A DNA stretch of 64,000 nucleotides from Formosa sediminum. GTDB taxonomy: Bacteria; Bacteroidota; Bacteroidia; Flavobacteriales; Flavobacteriaceae. A program made the position numbers and the translations under genes. Shown piece after piece: positions 1-61,650 of the stretch. Location: the NCBI RefSeq assembly GCF_007197735.1, contig NZ_CP041637.1, positions 3,753,001 to 3,817,000 of the forward strand, in the 5' to 3' direction. Numbering within the stretch: position 1 is the stretch's first letter; the number at the start of each line of letters is the position of its first letter. A model generated the notes under the pieces. That model searched no databases and was not told the origin of the DNA. It worked only from the letters and a program-made list of their open reading frames with translations.

Positions 1-3000
1 ATAAAGATGCGTGATATGGTGGGTCGTAAGTTCCTTTATCTACTAAATCTTCCGGACTTAAATCTAGGTAACTATTAACAAGAGTACCATCTGCCTTATA
101 AGCTGTTGGAGCTCCTTTGTCATTTAGGCCAGCATAACGTATAGCATAAAGTGTATTTAATTCTTGCCCTTCTCTTAGTTGATTTTCAGAAACATAATCA
201 TATACATATGTAGTTCTTTCTTCTACGAACTCTGTAACTTTATTTCTATTATAACTAAGTATTAAATTACCACTCCATCTAAAATCATCGGTAGTTATAA
301 ATTTTGGACTAATTTGCAATTCAATACCTCTGTTGTTTAATGAAGCATAATTTTTAGGAAGGCTTGTCCAACCTAAAATAGGGTCTGAGTCTACATAAGC
401 TACAGCGTCTACGGTTCTCTTATTATAAAATTCTATACTACCTGATAATTTTTTAGAAAATAACTCGTAATCTATACCTATATTGGTTATGTATGTTTGT
501 TCCCATCTTAAATCTTCATTTGGGGGAGAAGTTATATTTGCTTGTGTTTCTCCAGCCTCATTAAGAATAGTAGAAATTGATGCTATGGCAAATGGCCCAC
601 TATTATCAAAAACATTACCACTTATTCCATATGTAGCTCTAACTTTTAATCTATTAAGCCATGGTAAAGATAAAGATTCTGTATCTACAATATAGTTAGA
701 TCCAAAAGACCAAAGTGGTCTATATGTATATTTAGGGTTTTTACCAAATAAATTAGATTCATCCATTCTTGCACTTACATTAAATCCTAATTTATCATCA
801 TACATGTAAGAAACATTTGCATAACCAGATATATATCTACTATCTGTATTTTGGTAAATAGTTTGTCCTCCTAAAGTAAAAGTCCCTAGAACAGATTGTG
901 TTGTCTGAATCCCTGCCACTAAGGTAGCCTCATCTACATCTGTAAAACTTAAACTTTCTGGATCATAACCATAACGTTTAAATCCATATGATTCTGTAAC
1001 TGCTTTGCTTCTCTCTCCCCCTAAAATTACATTTACATCATGTTTTTCTTTAAATGTTTTAGAGTAATTAAGTTGTGCTCGTAAAGTATATGAATTTCTA
1101 TCGTAAAAGGTTTCTGTAATCTGACCACCGTAAGGAATATTATTAATAACCTCACCATTAATTATTTGAGTAGCATCGTTTATCATATTACGAACATTAT
1201 AACTATCTTCTGATGCATAAATCTCACTATGGGTTTTACCGTACCCTAACTGACCTCTTAATTCCAAGCCTAAAGATTCTGAAAGTTTAATTTCTGTTCC
1301 AACATTTATAACAGCAGAAGGACTTTTACTTGATGTTTTTACTTCCTTCAATTGATTAAGCGGATAATACGATTGATCTAATAATCCTAACGAAATAAGC
1401 CTCTCAATCTCGCTATCACTTTTAATGTAATTCCATTCTGCTGGATTTCCATTTTCATCTCTAAGCACTTCATAAGGAAGTCGTGAAGCTCCTAATAAAG
1501 CAATACCTGAAACCCCTGAATAATAATCTGAAAAACCATAGCTACCTAAAAGAGAAATATCAAATTTAAACCAGTCATTAAATTTAAAATAGTTTTTTAC
1601 GTTTAGCCCTAATTGCTCAACAGGTCTATCTTTTTCAAAAGAACCTCTACTCGAATAATTAAGAGATAATGCATATTGATGCTTTTCAGTACCACCTCTT
1701 AATGCAAGGTTATGTTGTTGTGTAATTTTTGGAGTTAACAACTCATCTACAACTTGATCATAACCATCTAAGTTTCTTAGTTTATCTAATTCTGAATTTA
1801 AATATTCTGTTGAAATTAAACCATCTTCATGTGCATATAATAATGTATTAACTTCGTCTAAAGCTAAGGTTGAAGTCTTTCGTGTATCGGACACTGTTGC
1901 ATTAAAAACATCTATCTGATAATCAACAAATTCTGGAGAAGACATTAAGTTTTGATATGATCTACTTGGTAATGGCTCTATTTGAAATGATGATGAGTAA
2001 CTTAAAGTTGGTTTACCAACAATACCTCTTTTGGTAGTTACCACAATAACTCCATTGGCAGATCTTACACCGTAAATTGAAGCCGCTGTAGCATCCTTCA
2101 ATACTGTAACATTCTCTATATCGTTAGGGTTAATAGACTCTAAATCACCTTCATAAACCGCACCATCTAAAACAATTAAAGGATAATCTTCTCCATTAAG
2201 TGTAGAAACTCCTCTAATAACAGGTGTCCCTCTGTATAAAGACAAACCACTTACAGTCCCTTCTAATCTATCTAAAATATTTGTTTGAAATTTAGTTTCG
2301 ATGACATCAGATCCAACAACCTCATATGAACCAATAGATTTTGCCTTTGAAAGCACTTGATACCCTGTATTTACAGTTTTCTTTCCAGAGACAACTATTT
2401 CATCTAACTCATTAGAAGATTCTTTTAATACTACATTTATTACTTTTTTATCTCCTACTTCAATATATTGTTTTTCAAACCCCATACTTGAGAAAATTAA
2501 GACATCTGTAGTCTTAAGACCTTTAATCTTAAAATCACCATCAAAATCTGTTAGCGTCCCTCTTCTAGTACCTTTAATTAAAACACTTACACCCGCTAAT
2601 GGACTATTTTTTTCATCGGTAACATTACCTGTAATTTCTTCTTGTATTACTCTTGCAACCTTTTTTTCTATAACAATAGTATTATCTTTTAATAGTTCAA
2701 AACTATACTGATTAGTAGATATGACCTTAGATAATAAATCCTTGACTTTAATTGTACTTTTATTTAACGTAACAGAAGGAATTTCTTTAAAAAGATCTGA
2801 ACGATAAATAAAAGTATACGTTGTTTGCGACTGAATAATATCAAAAATCTCATCTACAGAAACTGTTTTATCCTGATTAATTGTAATTTTTGCATTTTGA
2901 GAGATGATATCGGCAGGCGTAAAACTAAAAATAGTAGAGCAAAACAACATCAAAATTGTTCTCATAATAATGTTTTTGGTTGATTTTCTAAAAAAGTAAA

Positions 3001-3025
3001 ATTCTTTAGTAAAATTAAAATTCAT
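1..3025 (-). CDS. SusC/RagA-type TonB-dependent outer-membrane receptor, 3' end outside window
   Basis: The minus-strand frame is open from an ATG at 3025 to the window edge, so about 1008 codons are present and only the last barrel strands are missing. After a hydrophobic export segment (around residues 20-40) comes an STN/secretin-like N-terminal domain, then a CarboxypepD_reg-like domain with the PLAGVSVLIKGTRRGTLTDF motif, a TonB box near LDEIVVSG and a plug with the LKDATAASIYGVRSANGVI signature of SusC proteins. The STN domain is what FecR anti-sigma proteins sense, and fecR lies directly upstream. The protein is closely related to the SusC at 17780-21289. I chose 3025 because an upstream in-frame extension has no start codon before a stop. 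Role: TonB-driven import of an unidentified ligand over the outer membrane; the partner SusD would lie left of the window. Confidence 0.93.
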   Translation of the reverse strand, partial: MNFNFTKEFYFFRKSTKNIIMRTILMLFCSTIFSFTPADIISQNAKITINQDKTVSVDEIFDIIQSQTTYTFIYRSDLFKEIPSVTLNKSTIKVKDLLSKVISTNQYSFELLKDNTIVIEKKVARVIQEEITGNVTDEKNSPLAGVSVLIKGTRRGTLTDFDGDFKIKGLKTTDVLIFSSMGFEKQYIEVGDKKVINVVLKESSNELDEIVVSGKKTVNTGYQVLSKAKSIGSYEVVGSDVIETKFQTNILDRLEGTVSGLSLYRGTPVIRGVSTLNGEDYPLIVLDGAVYEGDLESINPNDIENVTVLKDATAASIYGVRSANGVIVVTTKRGIVGKPTLSYSSSFQIEPLPSRSYQNLMSSPEFVDYQIDVFNATVSDTRKTSTLALDEVNTLLYAHEDGLISTEYLNSELDKLRNLDGYDQVVDELLTPKITQQHNLALRGGTEKHQYALSLNYSSRGSFEKDRPVEQLGLNVKNYFKFNDWFKFDISLLGSYGFSDYYSGVSGIALLGASRLPYEVLRDENGNPAEWNYIKSDSEIERLISLGLLDQSYYPLNQLKEVKTSSKSPSAVINVGTEIKLSESLGLELRGQLGYGKTHSEIYASEDSYNVRNMINDATQIINGEVINNIPYGGQITETFYDRNSYTLRAQLNYSKTFKEKHDVNVILGGERSKAVTESYGFKRYGYDPESLSFTDVDEATLVAGIQTTQSVLGTFTLGGQTIYQNTDSRYISGYANVSYMYDDKLGFNVSARMDESNLFGKNPKYTYRPLWSFGSNYIVDTESLSLPWLNRLKVRATYGISGNVFDNSGPFAIASISTILNEAGETQANITSPPNEDLRWEQTYITNIGIDYELFSKKLSGSIEFYNKRTVDAVAYVDSDPILGWTSLPKNYASLNNRGIELQISPKFITTDDFRWSGNLILSYNRNKVTEFVEERTTYVYDYVSENQLREGQELNTLYAIRYAGLNDKGAPTAYKADGTLVNSYLDLSPEDLVDKGTYDPPYHASL

Positions 3026-3035
3026 AAATTTGCAT
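3015..3035 (-). other. Upstream mini-ORF overlapping the susC start (MQIYEF)
   Basis: An ATG ten bases before the susC ATG opens a six-codon reading frame (MQIYEF) that ends inside susC in another frame. The same overlap occurs before the locus B susC (MQIYEN, 21279-21299), while in locus E the upstream ATG is followed at once by TAA. It may only reflect conservation of the nucleotide motif ATGYAAATTTATG rather than a translated leader. Confidence 0.25.
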
Positions 3036-3036
3036 G

Positions 3037-3126
3037 GTGTTAGTTAATAATTTAATTAATACATGTTAAAACTAAGGGATGAAATCAGTGTACTTTGAGC
3101 GGTATGTTACGATTTGTCCCTTTTTT
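3037..3126 (+). ncRNA. Candidate antisense RNA over the susC leader, locus A
   Basis: On the plus strand, opposite to fecR-susC, TAAATTTG (3025-3032) matches the Bacteroidota -7 promoter element TAnnTTTG; a good -33 TTG is not evident. About 45 bases further on a hairpin (3074-3122, stem AAGGGA plus AAATC, 24-base loop) is followed by six T (3121-3126), the form of an intrinsic terminator. The predicted RNA is about 90 nt, begins at the susC start and ends at the fecR stop. The same layout recurs in loci B and E. Start and size are inferred; no expression evidence is available. Confidence 0.45.
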
Positions 3127-4258
3127 ATTCAATAATTATCTTTTTATCATATAATTTATATTTCAGATTTGTGTTTCTTTTTATTGGAATTAATATTTCT
3201 TCTAAAGTCATAGTTTTACTTAAGACACCATTAAACCTTATATCCTCAAGTTCTTTATTTTTAATAAGTATATCTACATCATACCATCTAGATAAAGATT
3301 TCATAATTTCTTTCAACGGTTTATCTCTAAATGAAAAAATACCCTCTTTCCAAGCTATTTCATTATAAACATTTACCGTCCTAACATCAATAACCTCTCT
3401 CTCACCTACCACGACAGACTGATAACCAGGATCTAAAACTTCCTTAAAAGCTTCGTTTTTCACAGATACTTCACCTTCAACTAAAGTAGTATATACACTT
3501 ATATCGTCTTTATAAGCTTTTAAGTTAAATTCTGTTCCTAGCACCTCTACTTCCTGTAGCTTAGAACGTACTTTAAATGATGCTCCATTATGATTTTTAC
3601 TTGAAGACACATCAAAATAAGCTTCCCCATACACAAGTTCAACTTCACGTGTTGTACCTGATTTGAAGCTAACTGGATATTTTAATTTTGAATCTGAATT
3701 TAACCAAACTCGAGTACCATCAGCCAATTCAACTTCAAACCTCCCTCCTCTTGGTACGGTTAAGTAATTATATAATATATGATTCTCGTCTTTTTTGTCA
3801 TATATAATTTGTTCTCCATTACTAGTAACTTTAGCTGCATTATAAGGCTGTCCCTTTTCTAACACAATATTAGAACCGTCTTCCAGAGTTAAAATAGCCT
3901 TATTAAAACCAGGGGTTCCTGTTTCTACAACAGAGTGTTTAACCTCTGCTTGTTCTTTGTTATTTATTAAATAGTAAGATAACGAAAACATCAAAACTAA
4001 CACAGCTGCTGCTGCATATTTAAACCACATGGGAAAAAACAATTGTCTAGATGGTTTTTGTTTCTCTATTTCCTTCCAAAGTTTATCAAAAGCTTTATCT
4101 ACATCTGGTTTATTTAGTACGGCATGTACATCATAATAATCTTTGACATAGTCTTTGAAAAGTTCTTGATTTTCCTTTTCTTTTAACATCTCCTTAAGTT
4201 CTAACAACTCTTTTGAAGATATTGTACTCGTTATATATTTTATAGTTATTTTTTTCAA
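3125..4258 (-). CDS. FecR-family anti-sigma factor (locus A)
   Basis: A 377-residue inner-membrane anti-sigma factor of the FecR family. The N-terminal cytoplasmic part (residues 1-80) would bind the FecI-type sigma factor; one membrane segment lies near residues 82-100 (YAAAAVLVLMFSLSYYLI); the periplasmic FecR domain carries the family motifs LTVPRGG, VWLNSDSKLKYPV and VELVYGEAYFDV; a DUF4974-like C-terminal domain ends the protein and would contact the STN domain of the SusC encoded 100 bases downstream. Known family role: relay of ligand binding at SusC to the sigma factor. The sigma gene is divergent at 4377. A promoter-like element shared with the gene at 5832 lies about 30 bases before the start. 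Confidence 0.93.
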   Translation of the reverse strand: MKKITIKYITSTISSKELLELKEMLKEKENQELFKDYVKDYYDVHAVLNKPDVDKAFDKLWKEIEKQKPSRQLFFPMWFKYAAAAVLVLMFSLSYYLINNKEQAEVKHSVVETGTPGFNKAILTLEDGSNIVLEKGQPYNAAKVTSNGEQIIYDKKDENHILYNYLTVPRGGRFEVELADGTRVWLNSDSKLKYPVSFKSGTTREVELVYGEAYFDVSSSKNHNGASFKVRSKLQEVEVLGTEFNLKAYKDDISVYTTLVEGEVSVKNEAFKEVLDPGYQSVVVGEREVIDVRTVNVYNEIAWKEGIFSFRDKPLKEIMKSLSRWYDVDILIKNKELEDIRFNGVLSKTMTLEEILIPIKRNTNLKYKLYDKKIIIE

Positions 4259-4376: not shown

Positions 4377-4961
4377 TTGGAAGTTTTAATTAACGACTCT
4401 TTATTAGCTATTGAGATTAAAAAAAGCGACAAAAAAGCTTTTAGAATCTTATTTGAGCGTTATTATAAAAATCTTTTAGATTATACCATTACCTATACTT
4501 ATGATTTACAAGAAGCTGAAGATATAGTACAACAAACTTTTATTACACTTTGGAACAATAGATTAAATATAAATTCTGAAAAATCTATTAAAAGTTATTT
4601 ATATAGAATAGCATACAATACTTATATAGATATATACAGAAAACAAAAAAAAAGAAATGCTTTTTTTAATGAACTTAAAGAACAAGCTCTAAGAGATAGA
4701 ATTACACCAGATCATGAAGCTTTAGATATACGCATTAATAAATTAAAAAATGTGATAGAAACACTACCTGAAAAATGCAAAGAGATTTTATATTTAAATA
4801 AATTTGAAGGTCTTAAGTATAAAGAAATTTCAGAACAATTAAATATTTCTGTAAAAACAGTAGAGTCTCACATGTATAAAGCTTTTAAAATAATTAGAAA
4901 AAACTTTAGCGAAGACGATTTATTTTTATGTATTGTATATAAAAACTTTTTTAAAGATTAA
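4377..4961 (+). CDS. ECF RNA polymerase sigma factor, FecI type (locus A)
   Basis: A 194-residue ECF sigma factor. Region 2 is visible at residues 20-85 (FRILFERYYKNLLDY, DIVQQTFITLWNN) and region 4 at about 125-180 (LPEKCKEILYLNKFEG, YKEISEQLNISVKTVESHM). It should direct RNA polymerase to promoters of the adjacent SusCD system when FecR releases it. The gene diverges from fecR across 118 bases. The start is a TTG: the frame has TAG six codons upstream and no early ATG, and the TTG start aligns well with the N-terminus of the locus B sigma factor. The rare start codon may keep the level low. Confidence 0.93.
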   Translation: MEVLINDSLLAIEIKKSDKKAFRILFERYYKNLLDYTITYTYDLQEAEDIVQQTFITLWNNRLNINSEKSIKSYLYRIAYNTYIDIYRKQKKRNAFFNELKEQALRDRITPDHEALDIRINKLKNVIETLPEKCKEILYLNKFEGLKYKEISEQLNISVKTVESHMYKAFKIIRKNFSEDDLFLCIVYKNFFKD

Positions 4962-17779: not shown

Positions 17780-20700
17780 TTAAAAATTTAAATTAACCCC
17801 GAAAGTATATGTTGGCATTATCGCAGTTCCTCTACTATACTGATCTGTCCAAGTTTCAGGATCTAAGTTATTTCTATTATTATTCCAACTTAAAGGGTTT
17901 TGTACATCAAATACAAGTTTTAATTTGGAAATATTTAAAGTCTCTAAAAATGATTGAGGTAAGTTATAAGCTAAAGAAATATTTCTCAATTTGGCATAAT
18001 CGGCTTTTTGAACATGTAAATCTGCATATTCCCATAAAGGAGTTACGCTATCACCTGTTCCAGATAAATGAGCAGGAGATGTATAAATATTTGCTTCATC
18101 ACCAGGTTCCTTCCAATAGTTACCATGTATTTTATCTATATTGGTATTGAATGTATAAGGATTTGTATATGTTGGATAGAACCCTGCTGCAACATCTCTT
18201 TGAACGTGTCCTCCGTAATAAACAATAAGGAATGAAAAATCAAATTGCTTATATGTTATACTACTAGAAAAAGAAGCACTATAAGGGGGTGTATACGTTC
18301 CTGAATTTACTAAATCCTCTACTTCTAAACTTTCTAATGAGTTTACAATAGTACCATCTTTTTTATATGCAGTTGGAGCTCCTTCATCATTTAAACCTGC
18401 ATATCTAATACTATAAAGACTATTCATTGGCTGCCCTACAAGTTGTTGTAATCCTATTACCTGATTGTATACATCTTGACCTGTATGGTCTAGATTTGTA
18501 ATTTCATTTTTATTATAACTAAACAATAAACTGGTACTCCATGTAAAGTTCTTATTAGCTATATTTAGTGAATTTACCTGAAACTCAATCCCCTTATTAT
18601 CTATTGAGGCATAATTTTTTAAAACAGAGTCCCAACCTAAAGTAGGATCTGTATTAACATTACCTAACACATCCTTAGTAGATTTCTTATAAACATCTAT
18701 ACTACCAGATATTCTGTTAGAAAATAAACTATAGTCTATACCTAAATTAGTTGTGTTTGTTTTTTCCCATCTTAATGATTCATTTGGAGGAGAAAGCACA
18801 TATGCTTGTTTCTCATTGGTTATGTAGTTATTAACACTAGCTACTTGTGTAAAAATAAATGGTCCAACATCTTTAGCTACATTTCCATTTATACCATAAG
18901 TCGCTCTAACTTTTAACCTATCAAGCCAAGATAAAGATTCGGTATTAAGTCTATAACTTGCACCTAAAGACCAAAGTGGGACATATTGATATTTTGGATC
19001 TGTACCAAATAAGTTAGATTGATCCATTCTAATACTAGCATTAACCCCTAATTTATTATTAAACATATAAGCCCCATTTCCATAAAAAGAAACATATCTG
19101 TTTTCTTCTTCAATTGTTTCAGGCTCTACTGAAGTATAAGTAAAGTATCCATAAGGTGGTATTTCAGCTCCAAATATACCCGAGCTTAAACCTACTTCAT
19201 CAATATTGGTATAAGAAAAATTATCAGGATCATAACCGTATCTTTTATATCCTTTTTGACCGGTAACCACCTTTCTTCTTTCAGCCCCAAATAGCAAATT
19301 TATATCATGCTTGTCATTAAATACTTTGGCATAATTAAGTTGTGCTTTTAGAGTGCTTGAATAGCTTTCTCCAAATGTTTCAGTTATTTGCCCTCCTTCA
19401 GGGATATTATATGTAATAATTCCATTTTCATCAATTTGGGCAGCATTATTTATTAATCTACTAACAGCAATATTTTCAATTGAAGAATAATCAGATAGAG
19501 AAGACCTACTCATTTCTGTTTGCGCTCTTACTTCTAAATTTAACGATTCCGTAACATCAATTTTTGCTCCAATATTTAGGTTAACATAAGGATTCTTATA
19601 GGTTTGAGTACGTGTATCTAATTGTTCCAAAGGATAGTAAGACTCATCTAATAAACCAACACTAATAAGCCTATCTACCTCTTCGAAACTTTTATAATTT
19701 TCCCATCGTACAGCGTTTCCATCTTCATCTTTAAGTAACTGATAAGGAAGCATAGAACCTCCTAATAAAGATAAACCACTAATACCTACATTATTATCAT
19801 AACTATTATAACTACCTATAACACTTGCGTCTACTTTTAGCCAATCTGCTAATTGAAGGGTGTTTTTTAAAGTCATCCCTATTTTATCTACAGAACGATC
19901 TTTCTCATAAGACCCTGTATTTTGATAATTAACAGAGAGTGCATATTGATACTTTTCTGTACCTCCTCTTAATGAAAGATTATGTTGTTGAGTAATCATT
20001 GTTTGTAACAACTCATCTTCTACTTGACTATAACCATCTAATCCTCTAAGTCTGTCTATTTCAGAATTAAAGTAATCTTCTGTAATTTCTCCATCTTCTC
20101 TTGCATATAATAATTTATTTACATCATTCATCTCTAATCTAGAATTTTGTCTAGACCCTGACAATGCTTCATCAAAAATATACATCTGATAATCAATCAA
20201 TTCTGACGACGACATTAAATTTGAGTATGATTGATCTGGAAGAGGTGTTATTTGTAATGTTGATGAATAATTAATTACAGGCTTACCAACAATCCCTCCT
20301 TTTGTAGTAATTACAATAACTCCATTTGTTGATCTAACACCGTAAATAGAAGCTGCTGTAGCATCTTTTAATACAGTAACACTTGCAATTTCATTTGGGT
20401 TAATAGATTCTATATCGCCTTCAAAAATTGCACCATCTACAACATATAAAGGAAGTGTACTTGCATTAAAAGTAGCCGTTCCTCTAACAGCAGGTGTTCC
20501 TCTATATAATGAAAAACCAGGTACAAGCCCTTCTATCCTTGATAAGATATCTGTTTGAACTTTATTTTCAATTTGCTTAGAACTTACCATTCCGTAAGCT
20601 CCTGTAGACCTTTCTTTTGAAATCGTTTGATACCCTGTTACAACAACTTCATCTAATTCGTTCATAGACTCTTTAAGAGTTATGTCTATAACATTATTAT

Positions 20701-21289
20701 CTCCTACCAAAATTTCTTGACCTACATAACCAACAAAACTAAACGATAGTGTGGTGTTTTCATCTCTATTACTAAGAGTTATTTCATAATTTCCATCAAA
20801 ATCAGTCATTACACCATTTAAAGTACCTTTTTCTACTACAGATGCACCTGGTAGAGGCATGCCATTCTCGCTGATGACCACCCCTTTTATTTTTAAATTT
20901 TGAACACTCGAATTTTGTTTAGATCGCTTTCTAACACTAATATTTTTTTTATTAGAAAATCCGTAACTAAATTCTTCTTTAGGAATGCTCATCTCTAAAA
21001 GTTCTGATACTTTTATCTTTCCTTTCTTTAAATCTACTTTACCGAGACCTACAAAAAAATCATCTGGGTAAATAAAATTGTAATCGGTTTGGTCACTAAT
21101 CATTTTAAAAATCTCCTCTATAAAAACCATTTTATCTTCATCGATAACGATTTCTGCATTTTGAGACAATGAATTCTTTGGAGCTAAACTTAGCAGTGTA
21201 AAACAAAAAGCAAAAAGAAATGTTCTCATAATAATTTCTAAGATCCACTTACCTAAAAAGGGACGGTGGTTTGTTAAGTTAATTTTCAT
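17780..21289 (-). CDS. SusC/RagA-type TonB-dependent receptor with STN domain (locus B)
   Basis: A 1169-residue receptor from the ATG at 21289, which aligns with the starts of the other two STN-type SusC genes; an ATG 10 codons upstream is less likely. A long leader (hydrophobic MRTFLFAFCFTLLSL) is followed by an STN domain (about 45-125), a CarboxypepD_reg-like domain (GMPLPGASVVEKGTLNGVM), a TonB box near LDEVVVTGYQT, a plug with LKDATAASIYGVRSTNGVI, and a 22-strand barrel ending in PTYTFGVNLNF. It is most similar in this window to the truncated SusC at the left edge. STN plus the FecR upstream indicates trans-envelope signalling. Confidence 0.95.
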   Translation of the reverse strand: MKINLTNHRPFLGKWILEIIMRTFLFAFCFTLLSLAPKNSLSQNAEIVIDEDKMVFIEEIFKMISDQTDYNFIYPDDFFVGLGKVDLKKGKIKVSELLEMSIPKEEFSYGFSNKKNISVRKRSKQNSSVQNLKIKGVVISENGMPLPGASVVEKGTLNGVMTDFDGNYEITLSNRDENTTLSFSFVGYVGQEILVGDNNVIDITLKESMNELDEVVVTGYQTISKERSTGAYGMVSSKQIENKVQTDILSRIEGLVPGFSLYRGTPAVRGTATFNASTLPLYVVDGAIFEGDIESINPNEIASVTVLKDATAASIYGVRSTNGVIVITTKGGIVGKPVINYSSTLQITPLPDQSYSNLMSSSELIDYQMYIFDEALSGSRQNSRLEMNDVNKLLYAREDGEITEDYFNSEIDRLRGLDGYSQVEDELLQTMITQQHNLSLRGGTEKYQYALSVNYQNTGSYEKDRSVDKIGMTLKNTLQLADWLKVDASVIGSYNSYDNNVGISGLSLLGGSMLPYQLLKDEDGNAVRWENYKSFEEVDRLISVGLLDESYYPLEQLDTRTQTYKNPYVNLNIGAKIDVTESLNLEVRAQTEMSRSSLSDYSSIENIAVSRLINNAAQIDENGIITYNIPEGGQITETFGESYSSTLKAQLNYAKVFNDKHDINLLFGAERRKVVTGQKGYKRYGYDPDNFSYTNIDEVGLSSGIFGAEIPPYGYFTYTSVEPETIEEENRYVSFYGNGAYMFNNKLGVNASIRMDQSNLFGTDPKYQYVPLWSLGASYRLNTESLSWLDRLKVRATYGINGNVAKDVGPFIFTQVASVNNYITNEKQAYVLSPPNESLRWEKTNTTNLGIDYSLFSNRISGSIDVYKKSTKDVLGNVNTDPTLGWDSVLKNYASIDNKGIEFQVNSLNIANKNFTWSTSLLFSYNKNEITNLDHTGQDVYNQVIGLQQLVGQPMNSLYSIRYAGLNDEGAPTAYKKDGTIVNSLESLEVEDLVNSGTYTPPYSASFSSSITYKQFDFSFLIVYYGGHVQRDVAAGFYPTYTNPYTFNTNIDKIHGNYWKEPGDEANIYTSPAHLSGTGDSVTPLWEYADLHVQKADYAKLRNISLAYNLPQSFLETLNISKLKLVFDVQNPLSWNNNRNNLDPETWTDQYSRGTAIMPTYTFGVNLNF

Positions 21290-21300
21290 AAATTTGCATA

Positions 21301-21392
21301 AATTTAATTGGTTAGACATTTAATTAATTTAATTGAGATTAGGAGGGAAAAATATTCACGGTCCAATGTTTATATTTCTTTCCCTCTTTTTT
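21301..21392 (+). ncRNA. Candidate antisense RNA over the susC leader, locus B
   Basis: TAAATTTG at 21289-21296 on the plus strand overlaps the susC start codon in the same way as in locus A; a TTTG at 21270-21273 could be a -33 box but the spacing (15 bases) is short. A strong hairpin follows (21343-21386, stem GAGGGAAA plus further A/T pairs) and then six T at 21387-21392, touching the fecR stop. The predicted RNA is about 92 nt and fully complementary to the susC 5' leader. Confidence 0.47.
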
Positions 21393-22530
21393 ATTCTAGA
21401 ACAATAAGTTTTCCTTCTATTCTATAATTTTTAATTTTATTTGTATCCTGAATTAATTCTAATATTGTTTCAAGGTTTTGATTTTTATTAAATTCACCGT
21501 TAAACCTCTTATCTCTTAAAGATTCATTCAAAAATTTAAATTCTACATCATACCAGCGTGTTAATACTTTTGAGATATCCAATAGTGACTTTTTCTGAAA
21601 GACAAACTCACCATGTCTCCAAGCAATATCTCCTCTAACATCTGCATCTCGAATTATTAAATTATTATTTTCTATATTATAAATAGCTTGCTCATTTGGT
21701 ATTAATAACTTAGAGTCCGATTTTGTATTTATAGCAACCTTACCTTCTACTAATGTAGTATATACCTGAGATTCACCTTTATATGATTTAATATTAAATT
21801 TTGTTCCTAAAACTTCTATCGTTTGGTCTAAATTAATGACTTTAAACTTGGATCCTTCATGTTTTGTACTTGGAGACACTTCAAAATAAGCTTCACCATA
21901 AACCAATTCTACTTCTCTAGGTTTGCCTGTTATAAAATTTACAGGATATTTTAACTGTGATTCAGAATTTAGCCAAACTTCTGTATTGTCTGAAAGTACA
22001 ATATGGTATTGTCCTCCTCTAGGAATAGTTAAATAATTATATTCTATACTATTTGTTTTATTATCTACCTTTTTATATCTGATCTCTTTACCAGAACTTG
22101 TTAATATATTATTTTGATATTGAGTTAAACTATCTAAAATTAAATGAGAGCCATCTGCAAGTGTTAAAGTCGCTTTGTTTGTCCCTGGATTTATAGATAC
22201 TTTAGTGTTTTCAACTAAAGTATTCTTAGTTAGAAAGAAAAGACCGATTGTTACTAAGACTAACACTGCTACTGCATATCTAATAAATTTTCTTTTGTAC
22301 AAAGGAATTACCTTTTTTAACTTATCATCATTATTATTTATAGCATGTTTAACTTTTCCATAAGCAGCATTAACATCATTTTTTAAAGTCGCTAGATTGA
22401 CATCATGATAATCAACAACATATTGTTTAAATTCATGCTGGTTTTCAGTCTTTTCTAACCACTTATAAAGTAACTTTAACTCATCTTCGGTTATGGTATT
22501 TGCTATAAATTTCGCTATAATACTCTTCAC
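21391..22530 (-). CDS. FecR-family anti-sigma factor (locus B)
   Basis: A 379-residue FecR protein: sigma-binding N-terminus, one membrane segment (about residues 87-105, YAVAVLVLVTIGLFFLT), FecR periplasmic domain with LTIPRGG, VWLNSESQLKYPV and VELVYGEAYFEV, and a DUF4974-like end (DKRFNGEFNKNQNLETILE). It sits between the divergent sigma gene (22802) and susC, whose STN domain it should read. Its stop overlaps the T-run of the antisense hairpin. A promoter-like element with GGGG and GTAATAG lies 31 bases before the start. Confidence 0.93.
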   Translation of the reverse strand: MKSIIAKFIANTITEDELKLLYKWLEKTENQHEFKQYVVDYHDVNLATLKNDVNAAYGKVKHAINNNDDKLKKVIPLYKRKFIRYAVAVLVLVTIGLFFLTKNTLVENTKVSINPGTNKATLTLADGSHLILDSLTQYQNNILTSSGKEIRYKKVDNKTNSIEYNYLTIPRGGQYHIVLSDNTEVWLNSESQLKYPVNFITGKPREVELVYGEAYFEVSPSTKHEGSKFKVINLDQTIEVLGTKFNIKSYKGESQVYTTLVEGKVAINTKSDSKLLIPNEQAIYNIENNNLIIRDADVRGDIAWRHGEFVFQKKSLLDISKVLTRWYDVEFKFLNESLRDKRFNGEFNKNQNLETILELIQDTNKIKNYRIEGKLIVLE

Positions 22531-56934: not shown

Positions 56935-59900
56935 TTATTGTAAACTAAATTTGACTCCAAGACTATAAACTTGAGCAGAAGGATATTTACTAGAATCTAT
57001 CGCTAGTCCCGAACCAATTGATGTACTAGACCAGTTCCCTTGAGGATCAAACCCTGGATATTTAGTTATTGTAAATAAGTTCGTTGCTTGAAGAGTTATA
57101 TCTATACTCTTAATTGTTGATTTAGTAAAAATATAATTAGGTAAACTGTAGCTAACGTTTAATGCATTTAAACGGACATAAGAAGCATCGTGTAAATAAA
57201 AATCGGAAAATTTATTATTACCAAGTCCACCTCCAGGTACCATTCTTGGGTATGAAGCATCATACGGACTATTTAATATAGTACTCTGTCCTGCAATTAA
57301 ATTACTTTGATTATTGTTTCCTGTATTTACAACATCGGTATATGCTAAGTTCCAAAATCTCTTGTGCCCGTAAGCATAAGAAAATGTTGTGTTAATACTA
57401 AAGCTTTTATATTGATAAGTTAAACCAAACCCTCCAGAACCTAAAGGTGTAGAACTTCCTATATTTACACGGTCATCGTCAGTTATTAATCCATCATCAT
57501 TTTGATCTATAAAAATAAGATCCCCAGCGGTTTCTGTAGAACTGTTTAAATATGTTACTTGTCCATTAGAATCTACATTGTCTGAAATACCGTATGTATC
57601 TTCTGCATTAACATAAAATCGACCAGCTGTTTCTAATCCGTACCATTGACCAATTTCCCCTCCTTCAACTAATCTTATATATGGAGAATATGTTCCTGGA
57701 AAAAATAATTCTTCAAGAGAACCATTAATTTTTGTTACTTTAGTTACGTTTTTTGAGAAATTAAAATCAAAAGTTAATCGGTGATCCTTAGATTGAATAA
57801 TATTATATTTTATATCAAATTCAAAACCTCTGTTACTTGTAGACGCTACGTTAGATGTCACATCTTTAAAAGAAGAACTCCAAGCAATAGGTTTGTCGTA
57901 AATTAAATCTTTACTTGCTTTTTCATAAACTCCGATAGTCCCTGAAAGACGGTGATCGAAAAAACCAAAATCTAATCCTAAATCAAGCATTCGAGTTTGC
58001 TCCCATCCTAAGTCTGGGTTTCCAATTGTTGATGGAGATAAAGCAGCACTATCATCATATATTCCAGAATCTACAATAGTAATCCAGTCAAAATTACCTA
58101 AATTTTGAGATCCTGTTATTCCTAAAGATGCACGTAGTTTTAAATAAGATATATATTTTTTTGCTGCTGTAGATTTAATAAAATTCTCCTCTGACACCAA
58201 CCAAGCTAAAGCGCCAGAAGGAAATATTCCAAAACGATTGTCTTTACCAAAACGAGAAGAGCCATCGCGACGGACTGTACCTGAAATAATATAACGATCA
58301 TTATATTTATAATGAACACGAGCAAACTGAGAAATTAAGGCATTCTGGGTACTAGTTTCATCTACATCTGTAATATCTGTTGCAGAACCAAAATTATTAA
58401 GAACGTCATCATCTGGAAAACCTTCTCCTTTTATATAATAATAATCACTATTACTGCCTTCACTAGAATACCCTGCTAAAAGCGTTATATCATGTTTATC
58501 ATTTATTAATTTAGAATATGATAACGTAACATCTGCCACATGAAAAGTACTTTTAGTATCAGACCAAGTTCTGTTTGCAAGAGCATTATTATCACTTGTT
58601 CCTAAGCGGTTATAACTTAGATATTCAGAATCTGAATAGTTATTTGTGTAAGCCCCTCTTAAAGTTAAATCTTTTATTATTTCATAACTTAAAGATGCTG
58701 TTCCACTAAATAATCTTCCTATAGATGTATTTGTATTTAAGAGTGTGGTATATGGATTTTCGGTATAGATATCTTCGGTATAGATACTTCCATCTTCATT
58801 AAATGCAGGAAGATCTGGACGTGTAGATTTTAAACTGCTTAACAATCCATCTTTATCATCTGCCTCACGTACACTTGCATTTAAATTTAACCCAAATGTA
58901 ATTTTATCACTAAGCTTTGTATCGAAATTAAGTCTACCTCCATAAATTTCACTTTTTCCAGATTTCACGATTCCATCTCTATCACTATAATTAAAAGATA
59001 TAAAATAGGTACTTTCTTCTGAACCTCCTCGGAGAGAAATATTATGTTGTATTGCTAGAGGGTTTTGTGTCATTTCATCCTGCCAATTTATGTTCGAATC
59101 ATAAAAGGCATCGGGTAATACTTGTAAATCTGAAGCATCATACTCGCTTGTATTTAAACTTAAAAATGCATTTTCATCTAAAAATGTTTCTGTATAACTA
59201 TTAAAATCTCCAGTAGTAATTACAGATTCTTTACTTGCAGCTATAATAAATGCTTTATACTCTTCAGAATTAAACAACTCGTAATCATTAAAATCCATCA
59301 TTGTAAGTCCTACACGAGAGGATATTTCAAGTACGGGTTTAGTACCATGTTTACCTCTTTTTGTTGTTACTATTATAACTCCATTGGCTGCTCTAGAACC
59401 ATATACCGCCGTTGCCGATGCATCTTTTAGTATATCGATGCTTTTAATATCATCTAAATTTAGATTATTTAATGCATTAGAAACATCTCCTGAAGTTGTG
59501 GAGGTGTATTGAGGTACTCCATCAATAACCCATAAAGGTTGGTTATCTCCAGAAAGTGAAGATTGCCCTCTAATAATTACACTTATTGGGGATGTTGGTG
59601 ATGCAGATTGGACCTGAACACTAACACCTGCAGCTTTACCTTGAAGTAAACTTTCTACTGTAGCTTCCATGGGTGCATTATCAATATCTGCTGTTGTTAT
59701 TCTAGAGATTGCCCCAGTAGCATCTTTTACTTTAGAAGTACCATATCCAATCACAACCACCTCTTCTAAATTATCAAGATTTGGAATCATTTTCACCTGA
59801 ATATGAGTTTTACCTTCAATAGACTCCTCTATGCTTTTAAACCCCATATAACTAAAAACTAATATAGTTGGTTTACTAAAATCACTTATCTTTATTGAAA

Positions 59901-60423
59901 AATTACCATCAAAATCTGTAACTACACCATTTCTAGTACCTTTTATTAATACACCTACTCCTGGCAACGGTATTCCTGAATCGTCTGTTACGTGACCTGT
60001 TATTACTTGTTGTAAATTATTGACAGAATTTACGTTTGCATTTACATTATTCCCTTTACTTTTTTTTATAACTATGCAATTTTGTTCTGAAAATTCATAA
60101 ATAAAATCTCCATTAGACAAGCTCATATTTAAAAGTTGATATGCAGGAAATATTCCTTTTGTTAATTTTATTTTCGGATAATTCTCGAATAAATCTGCTC
60201 GATAAACAAAAGTAAACTCTGTCTGCTCCTTAATAAGTTTGAATACTTCATCGACAGAAACAACCTGATTATTTTTAATTTCAATTTTTTTGTTTTGTGA
60301 GAATCCGTTTTTAGGGCTTAAACTAAAAACAGAAATCGAGAAAAGAAAAATAAATATTTTCATGACGAGCGTTAAAAACTGTCTCTTGGACAAGAGAAGT
60401 GAATTAATAATTTTTTTTTTCAT
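56935..60423 (-). CDS. SusC/RagA-type TonB-dependent receptor with STN domain (locus E)
   Basis: A 1162-residue receptor from the ATG at 60423, chosen by alignment of the ATGYAAATTTATG start context with loci A and B. Leader with hydrophobic MKIFIFLFSISVFSLS, STN domain (about 45-120, DEVFKLIKEQTEFTFVYRAD), CarboxypepD_reg-like domain (GIPLPGVGVLIKGTRNGVVT), TonB box LEEVVVIGYGTSK, plug with LKDASATAVYGSRAANGVI, barrel ending SLGVKFSLQ. The plug and barrel differ clearly from the locus A and B receptors, so the ligand may differ. Confidence 0.95.
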   Translation of the reverse strand: MKKKIINSLLLSKRQFLTLVMKIFIFLFSISVFSLSPKNGFSQNKKIEIKNNQVVSVDEVFKLIKEQTEFTFVYRADLFENYPKIKLTKGIFPAYQLLNMSLSNGDFIYEFSEQNCIVIKKSKGNNVNANVNSVNNLQQVITGHVTDDSGIPLPGVGVLIKGTRNGVVTDFDGNFSIKISDFSKPTILVFSYMGFKSIEESIEGKTHIQVKMIPNLDNLEEVVVIGYGTSKVKDATGAISRITTADIDNAPMEATVESLLQGKAAGVSVQVQSASPTSPISVIIRGQSSLSGDNQPLWVIDGVPQYTSTTSGDVSNALNNLNLDDIKSIDILKDASATAVYGSRAANGVIIVTTKRGKHGTKPVLEISSRVGLTMMDFNDYELFNSEEYKAFIIAASKESVITTGDFNSYTETFLDENAFLSLNTSEYDASDLQVLPDAFYDSNINWQDEMTQNPLAIQHNISLRGGSEESTYFISFNYSDRDGIVKSGKSEIYGGRLNFDTKLSDKITFGLNLNASVREADDKDGLLSSLKSTRPDLPAFNEDGSIYTEDIYTENPYTTLLNTNTSIGRLFSGTASLSYEIIKDLTLRGAYTNNYSDSEYLSYNRLGTSDNNALANRTWSDTKSTFHVADVTLSYSKLINDKHDITLLAGYSSEGSNSDYYYIKGEGFPDDDVLNNFGSATDITDVDETSTQNALISQFARVHYKYNDRYIISGTVRRDGSSRFGKDNRFGIFPSGALAWLVSEENFIKSTAAKKYISYLKLRASLGITGSQNLGNFDWITIVDSGIYDDSAALSPSTIGNPDLGWEQTRMLDLGLDFGFFDHRLSGTIGVYEKASKDLIYDKPIAWSSSFKDVTSNVASTSNRGFEFDIKYNIIQSKDHRLTFDFNFSKNVTKVTKINGSLEELFFPGTYSPYIRLVEGGEIGQWYGLETAGRFYVNAEDTYGISDNVDSNGQVTYLNSSTETAGDLIFIDQNDDGLITDDDRVNIGSSTPLGSGGFGLTYQYKSFSINTTFSYAYGHKRFWNLAYTDVVNTGNNNQSNLIAGQSTILNSPYDASYPRMVPGGGLGNNKFSDFYLHDASYVRLNALNVSYSLPNYIFTKSTIKSIDITLQATNLFTITKYPGFDPQGNWSSTSIGSGLAIDSSKYPSAQVYSLGVKFSLQ

Positions 60424-60434
60424 AAATTTACATG

Positions 60435-60500
60435 TTGGTTTAATAATCAATGCCAGGGATATAACAAGCGGTCAGAGGTTTAGTTTTATCCCTTTTTTTT
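60435..60500 (+). ncRNA. Candidate antisense RNA over the susC leader, locus E
   Basis: Same architecture as in loci A and B, shorter. TAAATTTA (60423-60430) lies over the susC start on the opposite strand, one base off the TAnnTTTG consensus. A hairpin at 60455-60493 (AGGGATATAAC against GTTTTATCCCT, 10 of 11 paired) runs into eight T ending at 60500, next to the fecR stop. Predicted size is about 65 nt. Confidence 0.42.
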
Positions 60501-61650
60501 ATTCTATAATTATTTTATTATCTTCAATTCTATAATTCATATTATTCGTGTTTTTTATAATTTCTAGAATATAGTCTATAGACTGTTTTTTATTTAAGAC
60601 CCCTGTGAAAGCAACATTTTCCATATCTTGATTAACAAAGAGAACATCAATATCATACCACCTAGACAAAACCTTCATTATATCTTTTAAAGGTTTATTG
60701 GTGAAACTAAAAGCACCATTACGCCAAGAAATTACATCAAATACATCTACTGTAGATATTTCAAAATCATGTTTTACTTGAGAGAGTCTTGATTGCTCTC
60801 CAGGCTGTAAAATATTTTGATTAATATTATTAGTAACAGCTATACTTCCTTCAATTAGAGTTGTGAGTATTTCTGTTTCGTCTTTATAGGCTTTAACATT
60901 AAAACTTGTACCTAAAACAGTTAAACTTTGTTCGCTTGTTTTTAATGTAAAAGCATCTCCATTATGCATTGTGCTTTTTGAAACCTCAAAATAAGCTTCT
61001 CCATAAATTAATTCCACCTCTCTTGGTTGTCCTTTTATAAAATTAACAGGGTATTTTAGTTGCGATTCTGAATTTAACCAGACTTCTGTATTGTCTGACA
61101 ATTTAATTTTAAACTGTCCTCCGCGAGGGATAGTTAAAATATTATATTCTAATGTTACATTTTTATTTCCAACAACATTATATATTATTTCTTTTCCTGT
61201 ACCTTTTATTCCTTGTTTTTGATAAAGATTAGTACTATCTAACATTACTGTAGATCCATCTGAAAGTGTTAATACAGCTTTATCTGTACCTACTTTAATA
61301 GGAGTATTTGCTATCTCTATGGTAGTGCTTTTCGTCTCTTTTGTACCAAAAACAAAAGTAAGACCTAGAATTAAAACTATAGATGCCGCAGCTGCATACT
61401 GCCAATAATAGGTTTTCTTTGGCACGTTTAACTTCTCTTTTAAAGTTTGCCAATCTGCTTTTCTATCTATTTTACTTTTTAATTGTAACCGAGATTCTAT
61501 TTTCGTTTTATCTGTTAATCTATTTAAAATATCTTCTTTATCTTTTGAAGAAAACAAATTTGAAGATTCGAATGCTTTAGCCTTTTCATCTTTTAAAAGT
61601 GAAGCAGCTATTTGCTTAGATAATTTTAAGAATTCACTAAATTTAATCAT
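60499..61650 (-). CDS. FecR-family anti-sigma factor (locus E)
   Basis: A 383-residue FecR protein: cytoplasmic N-terminus (1-85), membrane segment (about 86-104, YAAAASIVLILGLTFVFG), FecR domain with LTIPRGG, VWLNSESQLKYPVNF and VELIYGEAYFEV, and a DUF4974-like C-terminus (VAFTGVLNKKQSIDYILEI). Unlike loci A and B the sigma gene is on the same strand upstream, 131 bases away. A CGTCTTAG box lies 22 bases before the start and may be an ECF-type -10 element. Confidence 0.93.
   Translation of the reverse strand: MIKFSEFLKLSKQIAASLLKDEKAKAFESSNLFSSKDKEDILNRLTDKTKIESRLQLKSKIDRKADWQTLKEKLNVPKKTYYWQYAAAASIVLILGLTFVFGTKETKSTTIEIANTPIKVGTDKAVLTLSDGSTVMLDSTNLYQKQGIKGTGKEIIYNVVGNKNVTLEYNILTIPRGGQFKIKLSDNTEVWLNSESQLKYPVNFIKGQPREVELIYGEAYFEVSKSTMHNGDAFTLKTSEQSLTVLGTSFNVKAYKDETEILTTLIEGSIAVTNNINQNILQPGEQSRLSQVKHDFEISTVDVFDVISWRNGAFSFTNKPLKDIMKVLSRWYDIDVLFVNQDMENVAFTGVLNKKQSIDYILEIIKNTNNMNYRIEDNKIIIE

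Follow-up and report, generated by a model that had tools for sequence, protein, structure and literature searches.

The FecR-linked susC loci and their antisense elements

The window analyzed here, a 64,000-nucleotide (nt) stretch of the Formosa sediminum genome, carries three loci, termed A, D, and E, at which an ECF sigma/anti-sigma pair (Pfam FecR, FecR_C, and Sigma70_r2/r4) accompanies a susC gene. FecI/FecR-SusC systems are common for nutrient uptake in Flavobacteriia. In locus A, an STN/SusC-type TonB-dependent receptor gene, the presumed target of the element described below, occupies 2..3025 on the minus strand and is cut by the window edge (Pfam CarbopepD_reg_2 and Plug, with STN sub-threshold; TIGR04056). 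The anti-sigma gene fecR (3125..4258, minus strand; Pfam FecR and FecR_C) and a divergent fecI-like ECF sigma factor gene (4377..4961, plus strand; Pfam Sigma70_r2 and r4_2) complete the locus. Locus D comprises susC at 17780..21289 (minus strand; TIGR04056 match at G000:C1:3770783-3773893) and fecR at 21391..22530 (minus strand; FecR and FecR_C), and locus E comprises susC at 56935..60423 (minus strand; TIGR04056 match at G000:C1:3809941-3813006) and fecR at 60499..61650 (minus strand; FecR and FecR_C). These last two susC genes are counted from the ATG that coincides with an antisense -7 box.

On the plus strand, opposite the fecR-susC junction, all three loci bear the same features in the same order: a -7 box, a 5′ hairpin, a terminator hairpin, and a T-run. 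The box reads TAAATTTG in loci A (3025-3032) and D (21289-21296) and TAAATTTA in locus E (60423-60430), and in each case it sits on the susC start codon, its first base being the final T of the CAT that is complementary to the susC ATG (CAT at 3023-3025 in locus A). The sequence TAnnTTTG is the -7 box of sigma-A (PMC7366714, PMC9723704); loci A and D match it exactly, and in locus E the final base is A. A conserved -33 column was not found in 107 aligned type 1 loci from the pattern search described below, an alignment from which a motif at variable distance would escape. In F. johnsoniae, likewise, no -33 element could be identified (PMC7366714).

Because the -7 box occupies -12 to -5 in F. 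psychrophilum (PMC9723704), the RNA start was set 5 nts past the box, and the 3′ end was inferred from the T-run. The resulting predicted RNAs span 3037-3127 (~91 nts), 21301-21394 (~94 nts), and 60435-60500 (~66 nts) on the plus strand of loci A, D, and E, respectively. Folding places a 5′ hairpin at 3037-3062 (A+T-rich), 21301-21334, and 60435-60450, beginning 0, 4, and 3 nts after the box when folded from the box end. The terminator hairpins follow at 3074-3122, with the T-run next at 3121-3126, at 21341-21388, and at 60455-60493; their loops contain CGGT at 3100, 21359, and 60469. All three are matched by RNA model R2 (E 1.7e-4, 4.2e-5, and 6.7e-4), of which they are themselves model-building members. 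The T-run ends on the complement of the fecR TAA stop codon (3125-3127, 21391-21393, and 60499-60501). The criterion for an intrinsic terminator, a G+C-containing hairpin followed directly by a T-run on one strand, is satisfied. A generic terminator scan limited to loops of 3-8 nts did not list the locus A hairpin among its results. The predicted RNAs fold at -23.4 (A), -21.8 (D), and -16.6 kcal/mol (E), the sense strand of the same spans at -10.0, -13.8, and -10.3 kcal/mol.

Most of this anatomy had been claimed in a first-pass annotation, and its descriptive part held: a box over the susC start codon opposite the operon in three FecI/FecR loci, a T-run ending at the fecR stop, a CGGT-like loop core (CGGT itself in all three loops), and the lack of any such element at the FecR-less susC of locus C (L123), where neither box nor antisense hairpin is present. 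Its spacing of 45-50 bases from box to hairpin (30 in locus E) held within the choice of boundaries, the measured distances from box end to terminator hairpin being 41, 44, and 24 nts. Its RNA of about 90 nts compares with predicted lengths of 91, 94, and 66 nts, for which there are no transcript data.

The position of the box bears on gene annotation. For the locus D susC, the boxed in-frame ATG at 21289 is probably the true start, in preference to the first ATG of the open reading frame (ORF) at 21319. In locus A, roughly 20 residues of SusC (~2966-3025, minus strand) precede a second Met that, by eye, resembles the start of a signal peptide, and other FecR-linked loci also have an extension upstream of the inner Met. 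Because the box lies on the upstream ATG, annotating the inner ATG would mask the overlap with the antisense promoter.

Prevalence at fecR-susC junctions

The F. sediminum genome has 8 FecR genes, and FecR was found in 34 of 59 relatives searched. From the relatives, 78 FecR loci with an open frame of ≥370 aa were chosen by reading, a set that is not exhaustive. Two of the 86 loci so assembled (L055 and L073) were dropped for want of a susC ORF downstream, leaving 84 junctions. Controls were 40 hand-picked FecR-less susC genes, 16 from genome G000, 20 from G025, and 4 from G001, none of them adjoining a listed FecR; 130 nts were scanned for each, versus a mean of 150 nts for the junctions.

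An antisense hairpin followed by a T-run, at or below -12 kcal/mol, occurs at 67 of the 84 junctions, compared to 5/84 on the sense strand and 16/420 in dinucleotide shuffles. A laxer cut-off of ≤ -8 kcal/mol gives 74/84, 12/84, and 94/420, respectively. FecR-less susC genes have the antisense hairpin in 3/40 cases (L128, L149, and L150) and a sense hairpin in 1/40 (L159) at the stricter cut-off, and in 5/40 and 4/40 at the laxer one. The shuffles and the sense strand of the same junctions rule out a chance match or a generic A+T-rich hairpin. The box behaves similarly: allowing G or A as its last base, it lies in register with an in-frame ATG within the first 60 codons of 58/84 FecR-linked susC genes, at the first ATG in 53 of these 58, as against 2/78 susD and 3/40 FecR-less susC genes. 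Those two control counts exclude the idea that a TANNTTTG-like string merely reflects the general translation context of SusC. Box and hairpin also co-occur, the box being present in 53 of the 67 junctions with a hairpin versus 5 of the 17 without (p 2e-4). All these counts ignore kinship: paralogues and relatives enter as if they were independent.

The element is not universal. Seventeen of the 84 junctions do not meet the hairpin cut-off, and 14 of these also lack an element by eye. Within the F. sediminum genome, A, D, E, and L119 meet the cut-off and L120 is recovered by model R1 (E 0.04); the remaining three of eight (L116, L117, and L118) show no clear element. One susC lineage (N-terminus MKNALYR.YFRAKI) accounts for three FecR-linked junctions, L062, L113, and L116, that lack a proper antisense terminator; in L062 and L116 the start codon still bears a box-like TATTTTTA. 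Conceivably, these junctions hold decayed elements. A converse observation concerns FecR-less genes. L128 (G000:C1:3826925-3826996, ~10 kb past the window end) is a FecR-less susC with an antisense hairpin and T-run (R1 E 0.24), and L149 and L150 are FecR-less susC genes with hairpin, T-run, and box.

Strand preference of the fold

A G-U pair on one strand is an A-C mismatch on the other, so that mismatches within a hairpin tell which strand folds. The best hairpin built from Watson-Crick pairs only was taken at each junction, and 77 of the 84 junctions yielded one. Single internal mismatches comprised 35 that are G-U in the antisense RNA, 1 that is G-U in the sense RNA, and 6 others; the 35-to-1 split has a two-sided binomial p of 1e-9, with kinship ignored. 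Hairpins picked on the antisense strand gave a wobble count of 31 to 0. Of 66 terminator hairpins, 60 were also more stable when folded as antisense RNA, and so were 62 of 63 5′ segments, although the antisense strand supplied the windows and part of the difference follows from base composition alone. At five junctions (L038, L054, L099, L104, and L120), a hairpin with T-run at ≤ -12 kcal/mol is present on the sense strand as well. Judged from sequence alone, it is the antisense RNA in which selection has maintained pairing, and not the mRNA or the DNA.

Two structural classes

The classed elements, assigned by eye, fall into two types. Type 1 (39 loci) has a stem like TCGGGAAATG, a loop of about 6 nts, and CATTTTCCGA; type 2 (27 loci, including A, D, and E) has a stem like GGGGATAAAGTT and a long loop, which contains CGGT in 12 of the 27. 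Stems and loops are similar between paralogues and between genomes. Among the 30 of 39 type 1 elements that were aligned, 10 of 11 pairs show changes on both sides, and 98.5% of cells are paired (82.1% in shuffles). Across all 27 type 2 elements, 8 of 9 pairs show such changes and 87.2% of cells are paired, compared to 74.9% in shuffles. Double-change pairs in type 2 are no more numerous than shuffles allow (64/500 reach the same number), while the double-change cells and the covariation score lie beyond them (0/500).

Predicted lengths, whose ends are themselves predicted, are 65-82 nts for type 1 (median 74; 37 elements) and 65-104 nts for type 2 (median 89; 26 elements). Of the 66 classed elements, 63 have 24-53 nts between box and terminator, and the remaining three were measured from a wrong start; in 107 pattern-found type 1 loci the distance is 40-57 nts (mean 47.3). 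The 5′ hairpin differs between the types. In type 2 elements with a canonical box it begins 0-6 nts past the box in 22/22 cases (~0.62 in shuffled sequence). In type 1 elements this position is taken in 16/31, no more than in shuffles (~0.58), and the hairpin start instead peaks 11 nts past the box (8/31; 0.02 in shuffles).

Specificity and phylogenetic spread

Two covariance models, R1 (30 of the 39 type 1 elements) and R2 (all 27 type 2 elements), were built from the RNA part only, with the box and the genes excluded. In five whole genomes at E ≤ 0.05, all 14 R1 and all 15 R2 matches were antisense and adjoined a listed FecR. Matches from outside model building accounted for 5 of the 14 (L052, L114, and single places in G000, G001, and G003) and 1 of the 15 (L052). 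Weaker matches (E 0.05-1) were more scattered: the five for R1 comprised two by a listed FecR, L128, the reverse strand of a member, and one place elsewhere, and the seven for R2 comprised the reverse strand of a member and six places elsewhere. In 18 fresh genomes at E ≤ 0.1, 12 of 13 R1 matches lay antisense between fecR and susC, the one failure being at a contig end, as did 5 of 9 R2 matches; all 5 R2 matches at E ≤ 0.003 qualified, and the four failures had E values of 0.017-0.095. Each model was positive in 6 of the 18 genomes. A draw of 40 genomes from the family, most of them used before, contained 13 positive for R1 and 9 for R2; fecR and susC flanked 53 of the 55 matches checked out of 69, L355 having susC only and L361 neither. 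When R1 was run across the class with stricter filters, 2 of 247 genomes gave matches, a count that is only a lower bound because the weak members of the F. sediminum genome itself were lost.

A strict pattern for the type 1 hairpin alone, CGGGAAATG-N6-CATTTTCCG-N-TTTT, was scanned across 84,980 species genomes. It returned at least 118 places, which are no random sample. Every one of the 118 lies on the strand opposite to the adjoining susC and/or fecR. Both genes flank 110 of the 118 (107 by the limits of the script, with L211, L245, and L253 added on reading), one gene is found at 7 where the stored DNA ends nearby, and susC occurs without fecR at 1 (L235). A box lies upstream of 108 of the 118 matches, and the terminator of the pattern-found type 1 loci is a median of 84 nts from fecR. 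FecR and SusC in L181-L202, L203-L320, and L324-L378 were called by profiles built from the 84 loci. Record titles, available for 80 pattern places, are mostly Flavobacteriaceae; the others name Draconibacterium, Prolixibacteraceae, Bacteroidales, Bacteroidia, one Chlorobiota-labelled MAG, and Fulvivirga. Flavobacterium aquidurense, F. pectinovorum, Zobellia uliginosa, and Maribacter species are among the named carriers. Judging by these titles, type 1 appears to cross orders. Since strong model and pattern matches fall almost only at fecR-susC junctions, a generic flavobacterial terminator is ruled out.

No known RNA family was matched: Rfam 15 at its gathering cut-off has no match in the window or in 20 of the 84 junction loci, and the sole low-threshold match, a Dictyostelium snoRNA at E 1.1, can be dismissed as noise. 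Models and gap scans give little sign that the element extends to f36, a family within the same phylum: three of its genomes gave no R1 or R2 match at E ≤ 0.1, and one of 20 f36 fecR-susC gaps (L166) has a comparable hairpin, as do 3 of 20 on either strand when 150 nts of fecR and 60 nts of susC are added to the gaps. This element (L166, L321-L323) combines a hairpin of -21.6 kcal/mol and a T-run with a near-box TATTTTAG at the susC start; in a set of 40 genomes, two relatives of the L166 element share 82-83% identity with it.

These distributions bear on the wider claims of the first-pass annotation. It had proposed an antisense RNA acting as a general brake on FecI/FecR-controlled SusC systems, to be refuted in part by a lack of conservation at other fecR-susC junctions, and had suggested a covariance model as a check. 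Conservation holds strongly in junction counts, models, and pattern alike, and the covariance check, extended to two models, places strong matches almost only at such junctions. The antisense RNA reading is supported by the directional evidence, with transcription and repression remaining inferred. "General" is borne out as a distribution (67/84 FecR-linked versus 3/40 FecR-less at ≤ -12 kcal/mol) and fails as a universal statement, given the 17/84 junctions that miss the cut-off and the 3/8 in the F. sediminum genome without a clear element. The element is far more general than the three-locus view from which the annotation started.

A minimal ORF in susC leaders

The sense strand of the leaders has a feature of its own. 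The motif GCC[TA]ATG occurs within 330 nts upstream of the hairpin in 58 of 109 pattern-found type 1 loci, and all 58 of these ATGs meet an in-frame stop within 5 codons, versus 113/313 other ATGs of the same stretch. In the leader proper, from the fecR stop to the hairpin, all 54 GCC[TA]ATG ORFs have at most 3 codons, compared to 71/128 for other leader ATGs; 16 of the 54 are ATG-stop and 30 are ATG-NNN-stop, with a varied second codon and stop codon. More generally, the first leader ATG opens an ORF of ≤3 codons in 72/98 pattern-found loci (0.29 in shuffled sequence). The same is true of 23/34 type 1, 12/21 type 2, and 10/14 unclassed members of the 84-locus set (0.23-0.28 shuffled), and of 12/34 FecR-less susC leaders (0.33 shuffled). 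GCC[TA]ATG is rarer in the 84-locus set (16/84) than in the pattern-selected loci, and occurs in 2/40 FecR-less leaders; its weight is uncertain, because only those 16 loci have it and the pattern-found loci are mutually related. Weak echoes of the mini-ORF are visible in the window at 3056-3064 (ATG TAT TAA, minus strand) and 60428-60433 (ATG TAA, minus strand).

The mini-ORF and the antisense element may be unconnected. Fewer AUGs than expected lie close to starts in this phylum (PMC6847099), and an ordinary cause could be that upstream AUGs survive only if soon stopped, which leaves the shared GCC[TA] context unexplained. A bolder reading, no more than a possibility at present, is that FecR-linked susC leaders contain a two-part RNA switch, in which an antisense RNA made from a promoter built on the start codon is combined with a ribosome-parking or recycling mini-ORF (ATG-stop or ATG-NNN-stop, often after GCC[TA]); ribosomes coming from the mini-ORF and the pairing antisense RNA would compete for the leader and set the induction threshold. 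If so, the start codon and the brake could not drift apart.

A probable antisense brake and its rivals

The element is an ordered, one-stranded, conserved unit of box, hairpin, and terminator, tied almost exclusively to susC and fecR. The one-sided T-run, the wobble asymmetry, and the order of box and terminator on one strand together favor an antisense RNA gene. We therefore regard it as most likely the gene of a cis-antisense RNA of ~65-105 nts, a flavobacterial family that probably acts as a brake on susC; transcription, pairing in vivo, repression, and a threshold are inferred, without RNA data. In the proposed mechanism, the RNA would begin about 12 nts upstream of the susC start codon, from a housekeeping promoter of the sigma-A type whose -7 box takes in bases of that codon. 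The RNA would carry the A+T-rich 5′ hairpin, would end by intrinsic termination at or before the fecR stop, and would be complementary to the susC leader. While FecI is held by FecR, the sigma-A-made RNA would pair with the few susC leaders present, from about -12 upward; pairing would make it harder for ribosomes to load directly ahead of the start codon, open the duplex to RNases, or both, keeping the receptor low. Upon induction, leader RNA would exceed antisense RNA, producing a threshold. Polymerase collision over the common start codon may contribute as well.

In this phylum, translation proceeds without Shine-Dalgarno pairing, and mRNA structure and the bases shortly before the start serve to tune it (PMC6847099). 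Counting against the brake, the predicted RNA starts ~12 nts upstream of the codon and therefore leaves the start codon itself uncovered. Among the antisense RNAs of polysaccharide utilization loci (PULs) in B. thetaiotaomicron, some correlate with their susC and others anti-correlate (PMC10994844), and this mixed behavior also speaks against a simple brake. Further points on the negative side are the lack of a conserved -33 column, the type 1 5′ hairpins, which show no preference for the predicted RNA start, and the 17 junctions that miss the hairpin cut-off. In addition, a purely cis-acting antisense RNA would not need conserved loops, which could hint at a protein partner or a role in trans.

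That last point feeds a rival in which the antisense RNA is mainly trans-acting, or an activator or stabilizer, instead of a cis repressor. In its favor, paralogues and different genomes share similar stems and loops, the FopS RNAs of Bacteroides act in trans by binding susC start regions (PMC11697453), and the correlations of the B. thetaiotaomicron antisense RNAs are positive as well as negative (PMC10994844). The element nevertheless stays at its own susC, and any RNA made would be perfectly complementary to its own leader, which makes this reading unlikely. Similarly unlikely is an insulator, in which the hairpin and T-run would stop antisense transcription leaking from susC before it silences fecR, with no discrete RNA. 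The T-run of loci A, D, and E, and of many type 2 loci, falls on the fecR stop and is thereby well placed to protect fecR. However, an insulator needs neither a -7 box nor a limited distance from box to terminator, and the median of 84 nts between terminator and fecR in pattern-found type 1 loci does not fit it.

Two further rivals do without an antisense RNA altogether, and both appear very unlikely. A structured element of the sense mRNA, in the susC leader or the fecR 3′ end, such as a processing or attenuation hairpin, can point to the five junctions that also have a sense hairpin and T-run at ≤ -12 kcal/mol; against it stand the wobble count of 35 to 1 disfavoring the sense strand, the one-sided T-run, and the greater stability of the antisense folds (60/66 and 62/63), the last owing partly to base composition. 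A DNA-level operator or ECF promoter, with protein-bound inverted repeats, draws support from the location of the repeats where a susC promoter could be, but gives no reason for G-T over A-C mismatches (35 to 1) or for a T-run on one side only.

Relation to known antisense RNAs and significance

Returning to the cis-antisense brake, its closest counterparts are the DonS family of B. fragilis and the ten DonS-like RNAs of B. thetaiotaomicron, which are likewise antisense to susC homologues (PMC7366714, PMC11697453, PMC9723704). DonS represses its B. fragilis PUL by an unknown mechanism (PMC11697453), and host-glycan PULs are typically under sigma/anti-sigma control (PMC7366714, PMC11697453, PMC9723704). 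The don PUL itself is sigma/anti-sigma controlled. Sizes may be comparable, at 78-128 nts for the DonS family and a predicted 65-104 nts for the flavobacterial elements (91 in A, 94 in D, and 66 in E). A sigma-A-type promoter is found for 52% of B. thetaiotaomicron cis-antisense candidates and is predicted from the -7 box for the flavobacterial elements. The latter are set apart from DonS by their two sequence and structure classes, by loops that are conserved, and by the overlap of the -7 box with the start codon. The comparison with DonS, already drawn by the first-pass annotation, thus holds for position and setting; that the flavobacterial element works like DonS is an argument by analogy, in which transcription and repression are inferred and kinship is not established. 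The FopS of B. thetaiotaomicron, multicopy small RNAs that block susC translation near the start codon (PMC11697453), offer a further likeness, but act in trans via a common 5′ seed, whereas each flavobacterial element sits on its own susC. In F. psychrophilum, 287 transcribed regions antisense to 281 CDSs were reported, and the authors refer to the antisense RNAs of B. fragilis PULs (PMC9723704); the relevant passages make no claim about fecR-susC, and members may be among the transcripts of the supplementary tables.

The open-licence literature searched describes antisense RNAs at Bacteroides PULs, but no fecR-susC antisense family in Flavobacteriia and no control layer beneath the sigma factor of FecI/FecR-SusC systems. 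Two covariance models and a strict pattern can now detect members in genomes without RNA data. A promoter embedded in the start codon suggests how a cis-antisense RNA stays in register with its target while both diverge. If the element is indeed a brake, antisense control of PULs would be a habit of the phylum and not a Bacteroides speciality, and it could be tested in tractable strains.
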